Shown piece by piece: positions 9,288 to 32,892 of a stretch of DNA of 39,752 nucleotides; position 1 is the first letter of the stretch, and every line of letters begins with the position of its first letter. The translations under genes and the position numbers were made by a program. The notes beneath the pieces are model-generated. The model saw only the letters and a list, made by a program, of their open reading frames with translations, was not told the DNA's origin and ran no database searches. This stretch comes from Actinomycetota bacterium (GTDB taxonomy: Bacteria; Actinomycetota; Thermoleophilia; Miltoncostaeales; Miltoncostaeaceae), in contig VGCE01000012.1 of assembly GCA_016870155.1 (NCBI GenBank), positions 1 through 39,752 on the forward strand, read 5' to 3'.

Positions 9288-10259
9288 TCAGGCGCCGTGG
9301 GGTGCGCCGGGGGCGTCACCCCGCAGCACCAGCAGCCCCTTCGCGGGCCGTACCACGATGCGCCGGTGCCGCCCCAGCGGCTCGCCGTCGGCCTGCACGG
9401 CCACGCCGTCAGGTGACTCCATCACGATCTGCTGGCTGGCGGTGCCGTGCGCGATGCGCGGGGAGTCGAGGTGCCATCCGCCCGTGAAGGCGCCTGCGGC
9501 AGCCACGGCCGGGCCCGTCATGCCGCGGCCCACCGAACCGAGCCAGCCGAGGGCCCCCTCGGTGCCGGCGTCGGGGATGAGGTCGAAGGCCCGGGTGCGG
9601 AAGTACGCATAGGGGCGCGCGCAGGCGATGCTCACCGACGCCAGCGGGAAGGGCGTGCCGTGGTCCACGCTCACGCGCATGGGGGTGCGGCGCACCTGGC
9701 GGGCGGCCGCCACGAAGGTGGCGCCCGCGAACCACAGCTGGCCGATACGGCGCTTCATGTCCGGGTGGCGCTCCACCATGTCGGCGGCCTCGGCGTCGAT
9801 TCCCACGCCCGCGTTGACGATGAACGGTCGCTCCTGCCCGCCGGCCTCGACGATGCCGATGGTCACGGGCTCGGCGCGCTGGCCGCTGGCGATCACGTCA
9901 ACAAGGCGGTCGATGGCCTCGTGGGCATCCGTGGGCCAGCCGATGGTGCGCGCGAACACGTTGGTGCTGCCGGTGGGCATGGGGGCCAGGGCGGCGCCGG
10001 TGTCCACCAGGGCACCCGCGGCCTCGGCGGCCGTGCCGTCGCCGCCCAGGGTCACCACGGTGAGGGCGTCGTGCTCCTTCATGGCCAGCCGCGCCAGCTC
10101 AGCGGCGTGGCCGCGCTGGCGGGTGGTGAGCACCGCCTGCACGCCGAGGGGCCCCAGGCGTCTCGTGGCGTACTCGGTCAGTCCCGGATGCGTCGCCGTC
10201 GCGCGCGGGTTGACCAGAATCGCGATCGGGTGATCCGCAGCATGCCGCGGTTCGGTCAA
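9288..10259 (-). CDS. Diacylglycerol kinase-family lipid kinase (YegS/DgkB-like)
   Basis: 323 aa. It has the ATP-binding GGDGT motif at 72-76, NPRAT near the N-terminus, PTGSTNVFAR at about 95-104 and the VNAGVGIDAEA region, all typical of the LCB5/YegS/DgkB family that phosphorylates diacylglycerol or related lipids at the inner face of the membrane. The TTG start at 10259 overlaps the stop of the upstream hydrolase as TTGA, the same 4-nt coupling used across the window. It converges with the NHL gene, with 19 nt between the stops. Exact lipid substrate unknown. Confidence 0.9.
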   Translation of the reverse strand: MTEPRHAADHPIAILVNPRATATHPGLTEYATRRLGPLGVQAVLTTRQRGHAAELARLAMKEHDALTVVTLGGDGTAAEAAGALVDTGAALAPMPTGSTNVFARTIGWPTDAHEAIDRLVDVIASGQRAEPVTIGIVEAGGQERPFIVNAGVGIDAEAADMVERHPDMKRRIGQLWFAGATFVAAARQVRRTPMRVSVDHGTPFPLASVSIACARPYAYFRTRAFDLIPDAGTEGALGWLGSVGRGMTGPAVAAAGAFTGGWHLDSPRIAHGTASQQIVMESPDGVAVQADGEPLGRHRRIVVRPAKGLLVLRGDAPGAPHGA

Positions 10260-10966
10260 GCGTCCTCCGCCAGCGACAGCTCGACACGTGCGAGGAACGC
10301 CGCGATGAGCAGGTCGATCATGTCGGGGCGCTCCAGCTGCGGCACGTGGGCGGTCTCGGCGATGATGGCCAGCGTGGCGTCGGGCAGCTCATCCGCGAGC
10401 TCCTCCGACAGCCACATGGGCACCAGCGGGTCGGACTCCCCGGTCATCACCATGGCGGGCACATCCACGCCGCCGAGCTTGCCGCGCAGGTCGTGCGCCT
10501 GGGCCGAGAGGTAGTCGGCGCGCAGGGCGTCGGGGCCCATGGAGATCACCGAGTTGGTGCCGCGGCGGATGAGGTCGGGCTCGTGGTGCAGCCACGACTG
10601 CTCCACCATGCGGGCGCACTCGGCCCCGAAGTCGGCGTCGATGCGCGCGATGGCGTCGTCGGGCACCGGCAGGCGCGCCCCCGTGGACACCAGCACGAGG
10701 CCGGAGACCAGATCGGGGCGCGCCAAGGTGATTTCCAGCGCCACGGCGCCGCCTAGCGAGTGGCCCACCATCACCATCGGCCCCTCGACCTCCTCCACCT
10801 CGGCGATCACCCACTCGGCCATGGCCTGCGTGCCCATGAGCGGCACGCCGTCGGGGTGGCCGGGCAGGGCCACGGCCAGCGCGCCTTCGAACCGGGCCAG
10901 CTGGGGGCCCCACGATGCGGGCGTGCGGCCCGCGCCGTGGATGAACAGCGGACGCGGCGCGTCTAT
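10256..10966 (-). CDS. Alpha/beta hydrolase, apparent ATA start
   Basis: 236 aa if begun at the ATA at 10964-10966. The fold is clear: oxyanion-loop LFIHGAG at 7-13, nucleophile elbow GHSLGG with Ser70, acid Asp179 (TGESDP) and His207 (ETAHVPQLE). The only standard start downstream, a GTG near residue 32, would remove the oxyanion strand, and no ATG, GTG or TTG exists in frame between the upstream stop and that point. A perfect ribosome binding site, AGGAGGTGA (10971-10979), lies 7 nt before the ATA. Its stop overlaps the lipid kinase TTG, so the two genes are probably one operon. The substrate (an ester or lactone) is not predictable. A sequencing error in an ATG is the main alternative. Confidence 0.8.
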   Translation of the reverse strand: MDAPRPLFIHGAGRTPASWGPQLARFEGALAVALPGHPDGVPLMGTQAMAEWVIAEVEEVEGPMVMVGHSLGGAVALEITLARPDLVSGLVLVSTGARLPVPDDAIARIDADFGAECARMVEQSWLHHEPDLIRRGTNSVISMGPDALRADYLSAQAHDLRGKLGGVDVPAMVMTGESDPLVPMWLSEELADELPDATLAIIAETAHVPQLERPDMIDLLIAAFLARVELSLAEDA

Positions 10967-10970
10967 GGGG

Positions 10971-10979
10971 TCACCTCCT
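10971..10979 (-). promoter_or_regulatory. Full-consensus Shine-Dalgarno before an ATA codon
   Basis: AGGAGGTGA on the minus strand matches the complete 16S anti-Shine-Dalgarno. The spacing from AGGAGG to the ATA at 10966 is 7 nt. This decides the start of the alpha/beta hydrolase, as no standard start codon is placed correctly. Confidence 0.75.
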
Positions 10980-10990
10980 GCACGCCAATC

Positions 10991-10996
10991 ATGGTA
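10991..10996 (-). promoter_or_regulatory. Candidate -10 box for the hydrolase-kinase operon
   Basis: TACCAT on the minus strand, about 24 nt before the ATA start, leaving room for the Shine-Dalgarno. On the plus strand the same bases contain an ATG in frame with the HAD phosphatase; treating them as a promoter favours the downstream GTG for that gene. Confidence 0.4.
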
Positions 10997-11009: not shown

Positions 11010-11015
11010 TACCCT
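11010..11015 (+). promoter_or_regulatory. -10 box for the HAD-ileS operon (leaderless)
   Basis: TACCCT ends 8 nt before the GTG at 11024, the same geometry as the other leaderless starts in the window. It lies inside a GGTACC palindrome. Confidence 0.45.
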
Positions 11016-11023
11016 CACCGGCC

Positions 11024-11695
11024 GTGGCCCCGCTCCTTCTTGCCGTGGATTTCGACGGCACGATCACCATGCGCGACACCCTGCACGTCATCGTCGACGA
11101 GCACGGGTGCGAGGGCGTGTGGGATGCCCTCGAGCCCGACCTGCGCGCGGGGCGCATCACGATCGAAGAGGCGATGTCGCGCCAGTTCTCAGAGGTGAAG
11201 GCAGCCCCTGAGGACATCATGGCGCTGGTGCGCGAGCGCGCCGGGGTGCGCGACGGCATCCGCGAGTTGGTGGAGTGGGCCGATGAGGAGGGTCACCGCC
11301 TCATCATCATGTCGGCGGGCTTCCGCACGGTGATCGACATGGTGCTGGACGGCATCGGCCTGGGCCACCTGGAGGTGGTATCGAACGAGGCCATCTTCAG
11401 CGAGGACGGCTGCACGCTGGTGTTCTCGGACGAGCGCGGTGAGATCTGCGAGCTCTGCGACCGCCGGTGCAAGCGCCACGCGCTGTCGGTGCGCCACGAG
11501 GGCGAGCACATCGTGTTCGTGGGCGACGGCATCAGCGACCGCTGCGTGTCGGGCATGGCCGACCTGGTGTTCGCGCGCGCCCACCTCGCCGAGTGGCTCG
11601 ACGAGCGCGGCGAGCCGTATGAGCCCTTCGAGGACTTCCACCAGGTGATCGCCCGGGTGCGCGAGTGGGATCACCAGGAGCCGGCGGCCGCGTGA
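11024..11695 (+). CDS. HAD-superfamily phosphatase (MtnX/SerB-like)
   Basis: 223 aa. Motif I is AVDFDGTIT with nucleophile Asp9 and Asp11; a motif II-type segment is LIIMSAGFRT, and the acidic GDGISDRCV is the metal-binding motif. Overall it resembles the 2-hydroxy-3-keto-5-methylthiopentenyl-1-phosphate phosphatase/phosphoserine phosphatase branch, but the cap is not diagnostic, so the substrate is left open. The GTG at 11024 follows a TACCCT box by 8 nt; an in-frame ATG at 10991 would add 11 residues and overlaps the probable -10 of the divergent operon. The TGA overlaps the ileS GTG (GTGA), which ties it to translation of a tRNA synthetase. Confidence 0.85.
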   Translation: MAPLLLAVDFDGTITMRDTLHVIVDEHGCEGVWDALEPDLRAGRITIEEAMSRQFSEVKAAPEDIMALVRERAGVRDGIRELVEWADEEGHRLIIMSAGFRTVIDMVLDGIGLGHLEVVSNEAIFSEDGCTLVFSDERGEICELCDRRCKRHALSVRHEGEHIVFVGDGISDRCVSGMADLVFARAHLAEWLDERGEPYEPFEDFHQVIARVREWDHQEPAAA

Positions 11696-19634: not shown

Positions 19635-21076
19635 ATGACTAGCGCGCGGGCGGCGCCCGCGCAGAGGTCCAGCAGGGGCTGCGCCCAGACGGCCAGGGCG
19701 ATGATGGCCACGGCACCTGCCGCGGCCACTGATGCCACCGACAGAGGAACGCGCAGCCTGCGCGCGGACCGCGCTCCCTCGGGCGCCGGCGACCACATGA
19801 CGATGACCACCCGCAGGTAGTAGACCACGCTCATCACGCTGGCCAGCGCGCCCACGATGGCCAGCCAGCTCATGCCGGCGTCCACGGCCGACCCGAACAG
19901 CAGGAACTTGCCCACGAACCCGGGCAACGGCGGGAAGCCCGCGAGCGAGGTCATCGCGAGGGTCATCACCACGCCGGCCCAGGGGCGGGCGCGGCCGAAT
20001 CCAGTGAAGGCCACCTGGGTGTCGCCGGCCTCCACCTCGCGCTCGCGCAGCATGACGATGGCGAACGCCGCGAGGGTCATGGCCACGTAGGCGAACAGGT
20101 AGTAGATGAGCGCCTCGGCGCCGGCCGCGGTGCCCACGGCCACGCCGATGAGCAGGTAGCCCGCCTGCGCGATGCTCGACCACGCGAGCATGCGCTTGAT
20201 GTTCCCTTGCATGAGCGCGCCCACGTTGCCCACTACCATGGTCACCACGGCGAGGGCGCCGATGAGCGCGCGCCAGTCGCCCGATGCCTGCTGGGTGGCC
20301 CCGGTGAACACCAGCAGGAACGCGCCCATGGCGGCCACCTTGGTGCCCGTGCCCATGAACGCGGTGACCGGCGTGGGGGCGCCCTGGTACACGTCGGGCG
20401 TCCACATGTGGAATGGCACGGCGCTTGCCTTGAAGCCCAGGGCCACCACGATCAGCACGATGGCCGCCACCAGCAGCGGCTCGGTGAGCAGGCCGTCCAT
20501 GGTGTCGAGCTTCAGCGCGATGCCGGTGAGCGATGTGGTGCCCGTGGCGCCATAGAGGAGCGCGAAGCCGTAGATGAGGATCGCCGTGCCGATCGAGCCC
20601 GTGATCAGGTACTTGAGCCCGCTCTCGCGCGACCTCTCGCGCGACACCTCGATGGCGCAGAGGATGTACAGCGCCACCGACAGCAGCTCGATGCCGATGA
20701 ACAGCGTGATGAGGTCGCCGCTCATCACCGTGAGCATCATCCCCGTGGCGGCGGCAAGCACCAGGCCCACGAACTCCGGGCGGCGTCCGGCGGCCGAGGG
20801 CTCGCCCCACGAGAAGAGGATCGCCGCAAGCGCCGCGGGAAGGATGATCCACGTGAGCAGCAGTCCGAAGCGATCGATGCGCAGCTCACCCGAGAACGCC
20901 ACCTGACGCTCGCCCCACTGGGCCACGGCGAGGGCGAGGGTGGCCACGATTCCTGCGAAGCCCACCCACTCGGGCAGCCGGCGCCACGTGGATGGCAGCG
21001 GCACCACGGCCAGTACCAGCGCCAGCACCGTGGCCGCACTCATCACGTAGAGGGTGAGTGCTGCCCCGGCGTTCAC
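19628..21076 (-). CDS. nuoN: NADH-quinone oxidoreductase subunit N
   Basis: 482 aa, about 14 membrane helices. One of the three antiporter-like proton-pumping subunits of complex I. Conserved parts include the GIELLSVALYIL helix with its glutamate, FKASAVPFHMWTPDVYQGAPTPVTAFM with the pumping lysine, and KRMLAWSSIAQAGY. The GTG at 21076 overlaps the nuoM stop as GTGA; the longer open frame upstream is antisense noise. It is the last gene of the operon, and it runs into tetR with overlapping stops. Confidence 0.95.
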   Translation of the reverse strand: MNAGAALTLYVMSAATVLALVLAVVPLPSTWRRLPEWVGFAGIVATLALAVAQWGERQVAFSGELRIDRFGLLLTWIILPAALAAILFSWGEPSAAGRRPEFVGLVLAAATGMMLTVMSGDLITLFIGIELLSVALYILCAIEVSRERSRESGLKYLITGSIGTAILIYGFALLYGATGTTSLTGIALKLDTMDGLLTEPLLVAAIVLIVVALGFKASAVPFHMWTPDVYQGAPTPVTAFMGTGTKVAAMGAFLLVFTGATQQASGDWRALIGALAVVTMVVGNVGALMQGNIKRMLAWSSIAQAGYLLIGVAVGTAAGAEALIYYLFAYVAMTLAAFAIVMLREREVEAGDTQVAFTGFGRARPWAGVVMTLAMTSLAGFPPLPGFVGKFLLFGSAVDAGMSWLAIVGALASVMSVVYYLRVVIVMWSPAPEGARSARRLRVPLSVASVAAAGAVAIIALAVWAQPLLDLCAGAARALVIP

Positions 21077-31534: not shown

Positions 31535-32892
31535 CGGTCGACGCCCCCCATCACGGGGTCGAGCGTGGCCACGATGGCGATGAGGTCGGCCAGGTAGTTG
31601 CCGCGGCACAGGGGCGCGGTGGCCTGCAGGTTGACGAACGACGGGTCGCGCATGTGTACGCGGTGGGGCTTGGGCCCGCCGTCGCTCACCACGTAGCAAC
31701 CCATCTCGCCGCGCGGGCTCTCGATGGGGGCGTAGGCCTCGCCGGCCGGCACCTTGAAACCCTCGCTCACCAGCTTGAAGTGGTGGATGAGGGCCTCCAT
31801 CGACCACGCGAGCTCCTCGCGCGGGGGCAGCACCACCTTGCGGTCGTCCGCGATGGTGGGGCCCTCGGGCAGGCCGTCGATCACCTGCTGGATGATGCGC
31901 AGGCTCTCGCGCATCTCGCGCACGCGCACCAGGTAGCGCGCGTAGCAGTCGCCCTCGGTGGCGGTGGGCACCTCGAACTGGAAGTGCTCGTACCCTGAGT
32001 AGGGGTTGGTCTTGCGAAGGTCGTGCGGCACGCCGGCGGCGCGCAGGGTGGGGCCGGTCACGCCGAGGGCGATCAGGTCGTCCGCCGGCAGCACGCCCAC
32101 GCCCTTCATGCGGTCCTTCCAGATCGGGTTGCCGGTCAGCAGCGCCTCGTACTCGTCGATGCGCCGGGGCATCTCGTCGATGAAGGCCTGCAGGCGCTCG
32201 ATGAACCCCGGGGGAAGGTCCTGCGCGCAGCCACCCACCTGGAAATACCGGTGGTTCATGCGCTCGCCCGACACCATCTCGAACAGGTCGAGCAGCTCAT
32301 CGCGCTCGCGGTAGCAGTAGAAAAACACGCTCATCGCGCCGAGCTCGAGGCCCGACGTGCCCAGCCACACCAGGTGGCTCGCGATGCGGTTGAGCTCGGC
32401 CAGTAGCACGCGAATCCACTGCGCGCGCCCCGGCACCTCGATGCCGAGCAGCTTCTCCACTGACATCGTGTAGGTCTTGATGTTGGCGAAGGGCGCCAGG
32501 TAGTCCATGCGGGTGACCAGCGTGACGCCCTGCCACCAGGTCTTGTTCTCGCACTGCTTCTCGATGCCGGTGTGCAGGTACCCGATCACCGGCGTGACCT
32601 CCTTCACCACCTCGCCGTCGAGCTCCACGATGAGGCGCAGCACGCCGTGGGTGCTCGGGTGGTTGGGGCCGAGGTTGATGAGCAGCGGGGCGCGCACGCC
32701 CGGGCGGGTGTCGGCAAGCATCTCGTTGGCCAGGGTGCGCTCAGCCGCCTCCTGCGGCGTGTAGGCCTCCACGCTGGCGATCACCCGCTCGGTGGGGGTG
32801 AGGCCGCGCTCCTCGCGAAGCGCCGCCAGGGTGGCCTCGCGGCTCTCGGCGGCAAGCGGGAAGTTCTCGGTGCGCGGGTCGGTGGTGCTCAT
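31531..32892 (-). CDS. nuoD: NADH-quinone oxidoreductase subunit D with N-terminal extension
   Basis: 453 aa. The 49-kDa-type subunit lining the quinone site: NLGPNHPSTHGVLRL, YLHTGIEKQCENKTW, RMDYLAPF and the C-terminal LDPVMGGVDR. The core begins near residue 68, preceded by a charged, helical extension of some 65 residues (for example EATLAALREERGLTPTERV) that standard NuoD lacks. It is separate from NuoC, unlike the fused NuoCD of E. coli. Start ATG at 32892; a later in-frame ATG at residue 58 would give a near-standard N-terminus, so the extension needs proof. Confidence 0.94.
   Translation of the reverse strand: MSTTDPRTENFPLAAESREATLAALREERGLTPTERVIASVEAYTPQEAAERTLANEMLADTRPGVRAPLLINLGPNHPSTHGVLRLIVELDGEVVKEVTPVIGYLHTGIEKQCENKTWWQGVTLVTRMDYLAPFANIKTYTMSVEKLLGIEVPGRAQWIRVLLAELNRIASHLVWLGTSGLELGAMSVFFYCYRERDELLDLFEMVSGERMNHRYFQVGGCAQDLPPGFIERLQAFIDEMPRRIDEYEALLTGNPIWKDRMKGVGVLPADDLIALGVTGPTLRAAGVPHDLRKTNPYSGYEHFQFEVPTATEGDCYARYLVRVREMRESLRIIQQVIDGLPEGPTIADDRKVVLPPREELAWSMEALIHHFKLVSEGFKVPAGEAYAPIESPRGEMGCYVVSDGGPKPHRVHMRDPSFVNLQATAPLCRGNYLADLIAIVATLDPVMGGVDR

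Follow-up and report, generated by a model that had tools for sequence, protein, structure and literature searches.

The hydrolase gene and its surroundings

The window analysed here is a stretch of 39,752 nt (contig VGCE01000012.1, assembly GCA_016870155.1) from an Actinomycetota bacterium of the Miltoncostaeaceae, and on its minus strand it carries a gene for an alpha/beta hydrolase of 236 amino acids (10256..10966), the frame of which runs from an ATA codon at 10966-10964 to a TGA at 10258-10256 and is supported by Pfam, a predicted structure and purifying selection. Read from the ATA, the frame begins IDAPRPLFIHGAG... and matches the Pfam family Abhydrolase_6 with an E-value of 5.8e-19 (70.1 bits against a cut-off of 26.3). 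The Pfam match, the GxSxG nucleophile elbow, the catalytic histidine, the HG oxyanion motif and a fold match identify the product as a protein of the alpha/beta hydrolase fold, and the motifs GHSLGG, AHVPQLE and HGAG as well as H207 are invariant in the genus comparison. In the predicted structure (pLDDT 81.7) the first strand spans residues 5-10 and the next one residues 30-33. By sequence, carboxylesterase Est-2 (5frd, E 2.3e-19) is the top PDB match, and it is also among the best fold matches; Est-2 and BioH/PcaD-type alpha/beta hydrolases are the closest enzymes, with ~27% identity to the window hydrolase. The protein scored under every NCBIfam equivalog cut-off.

The stop codon of the hydrolase overlaps the TTG start (TTGA) of a YegS/diacylglycerol-kinase-like lipid kinase gene on the same strand (9288..10259; DAGK_cat, 1.4e-18), which lipid kinase models match under their cut-offs. 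On the other side lies a divergent HAD-IB (MtnX-like) phosphatase gene (11024..11695, plus strand; Pfam HAD 3.2e-16, TIGR01489 above its cut-off) with a probable leaderless GTG start, since the GTG at 11024 stands 8 nt past a TACCCT box at 11010-11015 that we take to be its promoter.

On the minus strand the region ahead of the hydrolase reads TACCAT-GATTGGC-GTG-C-AGGAGGTGA-CCCC-ATA-GAC-GCG-CCG-CGT-CCG-CTG-TTC-ATC-CAC-GGC. The original prediction, that this gene initiates at an AUA behind a Shine-Dalgarno (SD) sequence, rested on this arrangement, and re-reading confirmed the arrangement: the extended SD AGGAGGTGA at 10979-10971 is followed by CCCC and the ATA at 10966-10964, which is 7 nt past AGGAGG. 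The nine nucleotides of the SD are complementary to the 3' end of 16S rRNA, the anti-SD of which we took to be CACCUCCUUU, and the predicted duplex of -14.6 kcal/mol exceeds that of each of 304 sampled genes (best -13.7, median -5.7).

It had also been claimed that no ATG, GTG or TTG lies between the preceding stop of the frame and a GTG at codon 32 (10873). This holds for the window, where that stop is 16 codons ahead of the ATA. Among the 11 related species that share the ATA (see below), the frame upstream of it is open for 12-16 codons without ATG, GTG or TTG, and the near-cognate codons CTG, ATT, ATC, ACG, AAG and AGG were likewise found in frame upstream of the ATA in none of the 11. The claim needs qualification downstream, as codon 7 is GTG in 8 of these species, the window, L007 and L014 having CTG, GTA or GTC there; the lack of a canonical start before codon 32 is thus true of the window and not of all relatives.

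Conservation of the ATA codon

We compared 20 genomes of this uncultured genus of Thermoleophilia, all of them drafts and mostly MAGs, several of which are recorded under the names Miltoncostaeales or Thermoleophilia, and found the gene in 19. In every species without an in-frame canonical start (11/11, window included) the start column is ATA. In the other eight species a GTG lies in frame 5-9 codons further upstream, and their start column is ATC (six), AGA (one) or ACA (one). Among the 11 ATA species, codons 2-31 show a dN of 0.020 and a dS of 0.797, a sign of strong purifying selection which indicates that this segment is translated as protein, and codons 2-6 are conserved at the protein level with synonymous change. 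The SD at -14.6 kcal/mol is retained in 8 of the 11, window included, so that in these an AUA start would be served by an extended SD at proper spacing; the weaker forms AGGAGATGA and AGGAGCAGC occur in L009, L012 and L013 (-7.9 to -6.6).

In our sample of sequence stretches from the window genome (~435 kb), ATA makes up 1.8% of isoleucine codons (49 of 2658), for which reason an ordinary isoleucine codon would not be expected to remain ATA. The combination of AGGAGG and ATA at 5-9 nt is not rare in itself, as it occurs 4 times on both strands of the ~435 kb, at the same rate as other triplets. What exceeds chance, as judged from these comparisons, is the conservation of the ATA across species and not its co-occurrence with an SD in one sequence.

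The start column was also followed into other genera of the family, where the homologous start aligns as M-S-A-P-R-P-V-F-I-H-G. It is ATG in G029, G036 and G031, GTG in G030, G063, G064, G065, G032, G034 and G025, and ATA in two genomes of other genera, G028 and G023. In the latter two a TIGR00725-like gene lies upstream and its TAG stop overlaps the hydrolase ATA (ATAG), and in G032 the junction with the upstream gene is GTGA at the place of ATAG. By this alignment, the ATA of the window occupies the position where relatives start translation. The sister genomes had been singled out beforehand as the check that could overturn the prediction, should they all carry ATG at this codon; sister genomes from several projects carry ATA instead. 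Together with the conserved SD core, the occurrence of ATA in all 11 species without another start supports initiation at AUA, and the comparison argues that the ATA is no sequencing error and that the AUA start is real and under selection.

One species, L008 (G012), provides a natural experiment. In a tree based on 3.7 kb, from which the start region was left out, it is nested in the ATA clade (grouped among six species with support 100/100), and monophyly of the ATA species without L008 was rejected (p-AU 0.005). From the GTG to the hydrolase, L008 differs by an additional base and several substitutions (GTG CAG GAC AGT GAA CCG ACA GAC), which place the upstream GTG in frame. In the same stretch the SD is broken (AGGAC), ACA stands in place of ATA and the TAG is gone. 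The joint loss of SD, ATA and TAG once a canonical start had been regained is what initiation at AUA predicts, as far as sequence can tell.

Putative promoter, mini-ORF and a proposed route to the AUA

Upstream of the hydrolase, a -10-like box TACCAT (10991..10996, minus strand) is invariant in all 19 genus species that carry the gene and is followed, in every one, by exactly 7 nt and a GTG; we infer that TACCAT is a promoter element, with a predicted transcript start at ~10983, the G of the GTG. The sister-clade genes look leaderless, the GTG after TACCAT being their in-frame start. In the ATA clade the retained GTG is out of the hydrolase frame and opens GTG CAG GAG NNN NNN NNA TAG, which in the window is the putative mini-ORF GTG CAG GAG GTG ACC CCA TAG (10963..10983, minus strand; MQEVTP), the TAG overlapping the ATA as ATAG. 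Directly before the GTG four bases vary; then comes the invariant CGTGCAGGAG, and of the 8 bases after it 6 vary. The mini-ORF peptide is otherwise not conserved, although the spacing of the GTG is kept in 19/19. That the GTG is retained hints at translation of the mini-ORF, but a constraint on the transcript start could be the reason instead.

The stop of an upstream frame overlaps the start in the window and its relatives, and in G028 and G023 a genuine upstream gene ends there. We do not count the AUAG as evidence in its own right, because within the genus the UAG follows automatically from AUA and a second codon starting with G, and the overlap is thus no independent evidence for coupling. 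Coupling of AUA initiation to termination of the mini-ORF is plausible, and we judge its chances to be about evenly balanced.

We consider it highly probable, from the comparisons above, that the hydrolase is translated by SD-driven initiation at AUA, probably aided by termination of the overlapping mini-ORF. The ordinary initiator tRNA (CAU) would start the hydrolase at the AUA at 10966-10964, and the mismatch at the third codon position would be offset by the extended SD at good spacing. The transcript would probably begin with the GTG of position 10983. Being out of frame in the ATA clade, this GTG would open the six-codon mini-ORF ending in the UAG that overlaps the AUA. A terminating ribosome, held by the internal SD, could then restart at the AUA as at the common AUGA overlaps, and direct SD initiation at the AUA would be a simpler form of this event. 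Because the hydrolase stop overlaps the TTG of the lipid kinase, translation may pass on to the kinase through TTGA, and a weak AUA start would then set the output of both genes. Among 47 tRNA matches, our search found no UAU tRNA and only CAU tRNAs for AUA or initiation, one of the latter in the genome being of initiator type, and a special initiator tRNA for AUA was ruled out on these grounds. Three tRNA-CAU-like sequences, one of them partial, lie within 14 kb of one another (G000:C3:17899-17972, 20048-20121 and 31623-31695) and may be where an integrated element is attached.

Other explanations were weighed against initiation at AUA. Some of the features above would also suit a programmed -1 frameshift, in which a leaderless start at the GTG at 10983 yields MQEVTP and the ribosome slips at CCA-UAG into MQEVTPIDAPRP..., a product resembling the N-terminally extended forms of the sister species: the sister clade and L008 evidently start at the in-frame GTG, the spacing of the GTG is constant in 19/19 species, an SD-like element precedes the stop, and in the window CCC-CAT-AG permits re-pairing from CCA to CCC. 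The slip site, however, is not conserved, since both the codon ahead of TAG and the base preceding it vary, and re-pairing would fail in 4 of 11 species (L010, L012, L013 and L014). The spacing of the SD fits initiation at ATA, the ATA aligns with true starts in other genera, and G028 and G023 have it behind unrelated upstream sequence, all of which makes a frameshift improbable. Slightly less improbable, yet still unlikely, is a start further downstream, at codon 7 or codon 32, with the ATA as an upstream relic. The GTG at codon 7 in 8/11 species and that at codon 32 in the window would allow for it, but the former is not conserved, three species, the window among them, having CTG, GTA or GTC instead, and lacks an SD at the usual spacing; codons 2-6, moreover, show protein-level conservation with synonymous change, and an invariant rarest isoleucine codon goes unexplained if it is not a start. 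With a start at codon 32 the protein would lose a core strand, the predicted first strand at residues 5-10 that carries HGAG, and with it the oxyanion loop.

That the frame is a pseudogene or unexpressed in the ATA clade might be argued from its missing canonical start; against this stand 11 frames, all intact and equally long, in which dN is low, dS is high and the catalytic GHSLGG and AHVPQLE motifs are invariant, and we regard this reading as very improbable. The original prediction had itself offered a point error in an ATG as its alternative, and ATA does differ from ATG by one base in a window assembly that is a draft of 16 contigs. This reading did not survive the comparison, as ATA and not ATG stands in another 10 species, which were sequenced in different projects, and we give it next to no weight.

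Near-cognate starts in the genus and in known systems

We also scanned 435 kb of genome sequence for genes with a coding-like stretch ahead of their first canonical start. The ribBA gene (L084:8333-9574, minus strand, G000 contig C2) has a CTG start within CTGA, overlapping the stop of an upstream riboflavin-synthase-like gene behind the SD GGGGGAGG; the CTG is found in 18/18 genus species, with a varying SD, and in other genera ATG or GTG stands at the CTG site or within four codons of it (22/22 genomes). For priA (L084:17259-19496, minus strand, same contig) the only plausible start is a CTG, from which the gene overlaps its metK-like upstream neighbour by 8 nt; the CTG is present in all ten ATA-clade species with the region available, the L008 genome included, and in the sister clade a GTG lies three codons downstream of the CTG site. 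A putative lipoprotein gene (lipobox LLLAGC; L087:17488-17964, plus strand, contig C2) has an ATA start behind GGGAGG, for which one close relative (G019) has ATG. A methyltransferase gene (L098:4367-5017, plus strand) and a gene for a TPP enzyme (L091:7929-9569, plus strand) seem to have CTG starts; close relatives of the methyltransferase gene were looked for in the genus and none was found, and its CTG start stays a candidate.

Across 36 genome triplets with 61,358 ancestral AUG starts, two changes to CUG and one to AUU have been reported, AUA not being mentioned and annotation bias being a factor (PMC5622118). The lineage studied here seems, from its sequences, richer in near-cognate starts than expected. 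A more general reading, which we put forward tentatively and think somewhat unlikely, is that start-codon selection is relaxed in this genus, whose members are streamlined, AUA and CUG having become fixed in several genes and always at stop-start overlaps, where termination-reinitiation may admit codons that fresh initiation would reject.

The AUU start of E. coli infC is non-AUG, conserved over evolution and sensitive to IF3. The hydrolase resembles it in having an evolutionarily conserved non-AUG start, but does not encode an initiation factor, and infC of this family uses GTG or TTG. This was the case in all 31 genomes of the family examined, none with AUA, and a regulation through AUA shared with infC (IF3) was discarded. 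In the infC genes at L083 (G000:C2:96545-96754, minus strand) and loci L053-L082, the GTG or TTG start is directly followed by CCTCCTAGG or a similar run, an anti-Shine-Dalgarno-like feature conserved across the family, and autoregulation is possible.

Known parallels come from Staphylococcus, where infC and ccpN have conserved AUA starts; in S. aureus these have an extended SD, and AUA gave ~10% of AUG in reporters; the ccpN AUA is conserved to Bacillus and reached up to 30% of AUG in rich medium (PMC13009471). The shared feature is a conserved AUA start behind a long SD, whereas the window differs in gene (an alpha/beta hydrolase), phylum, leaderless-type promoter and possible 5' mini-ORF overlap, and is known here from sequence comparison. 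The purpose suggested originally, low expression or a tie to initiation-factor levels, is plausible only by analogy with the S. aureus ccpN, citZ and cvfC1 reporters (PMC13009471). As in AUGA/UGAUG termination-reinitiation overlaps (PMC6728339), stop and start share bases and the SD lies inside the upstream frame, but the start is AUA (AUAG) or CUG (CUGA) and not AUG or GUG, and the upstream frame of the window has only six codons.

Beyond the original prediction, the analysis adds the mini-ORF with its AUAG overlap, a leaderless-type promoter, the lipid kinase operon and other near-cognate starts in the genus. On the comparative evidence, the hydrolase is a further case among the known conserved AUA starts, few of which are documented. 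Gene callers normally permit only ATG, GTG and TTG, so that they shorten or overlook such genes and leave conserved near-cognate starts unnoticed. The present case holds both a natural experiment, L008, and a genus with at least two more conserved near-cognate starts at stop-start overlaps, and whether reinitiating ribosomes tolerate near-cognate starts would be directly testable here with reporters.
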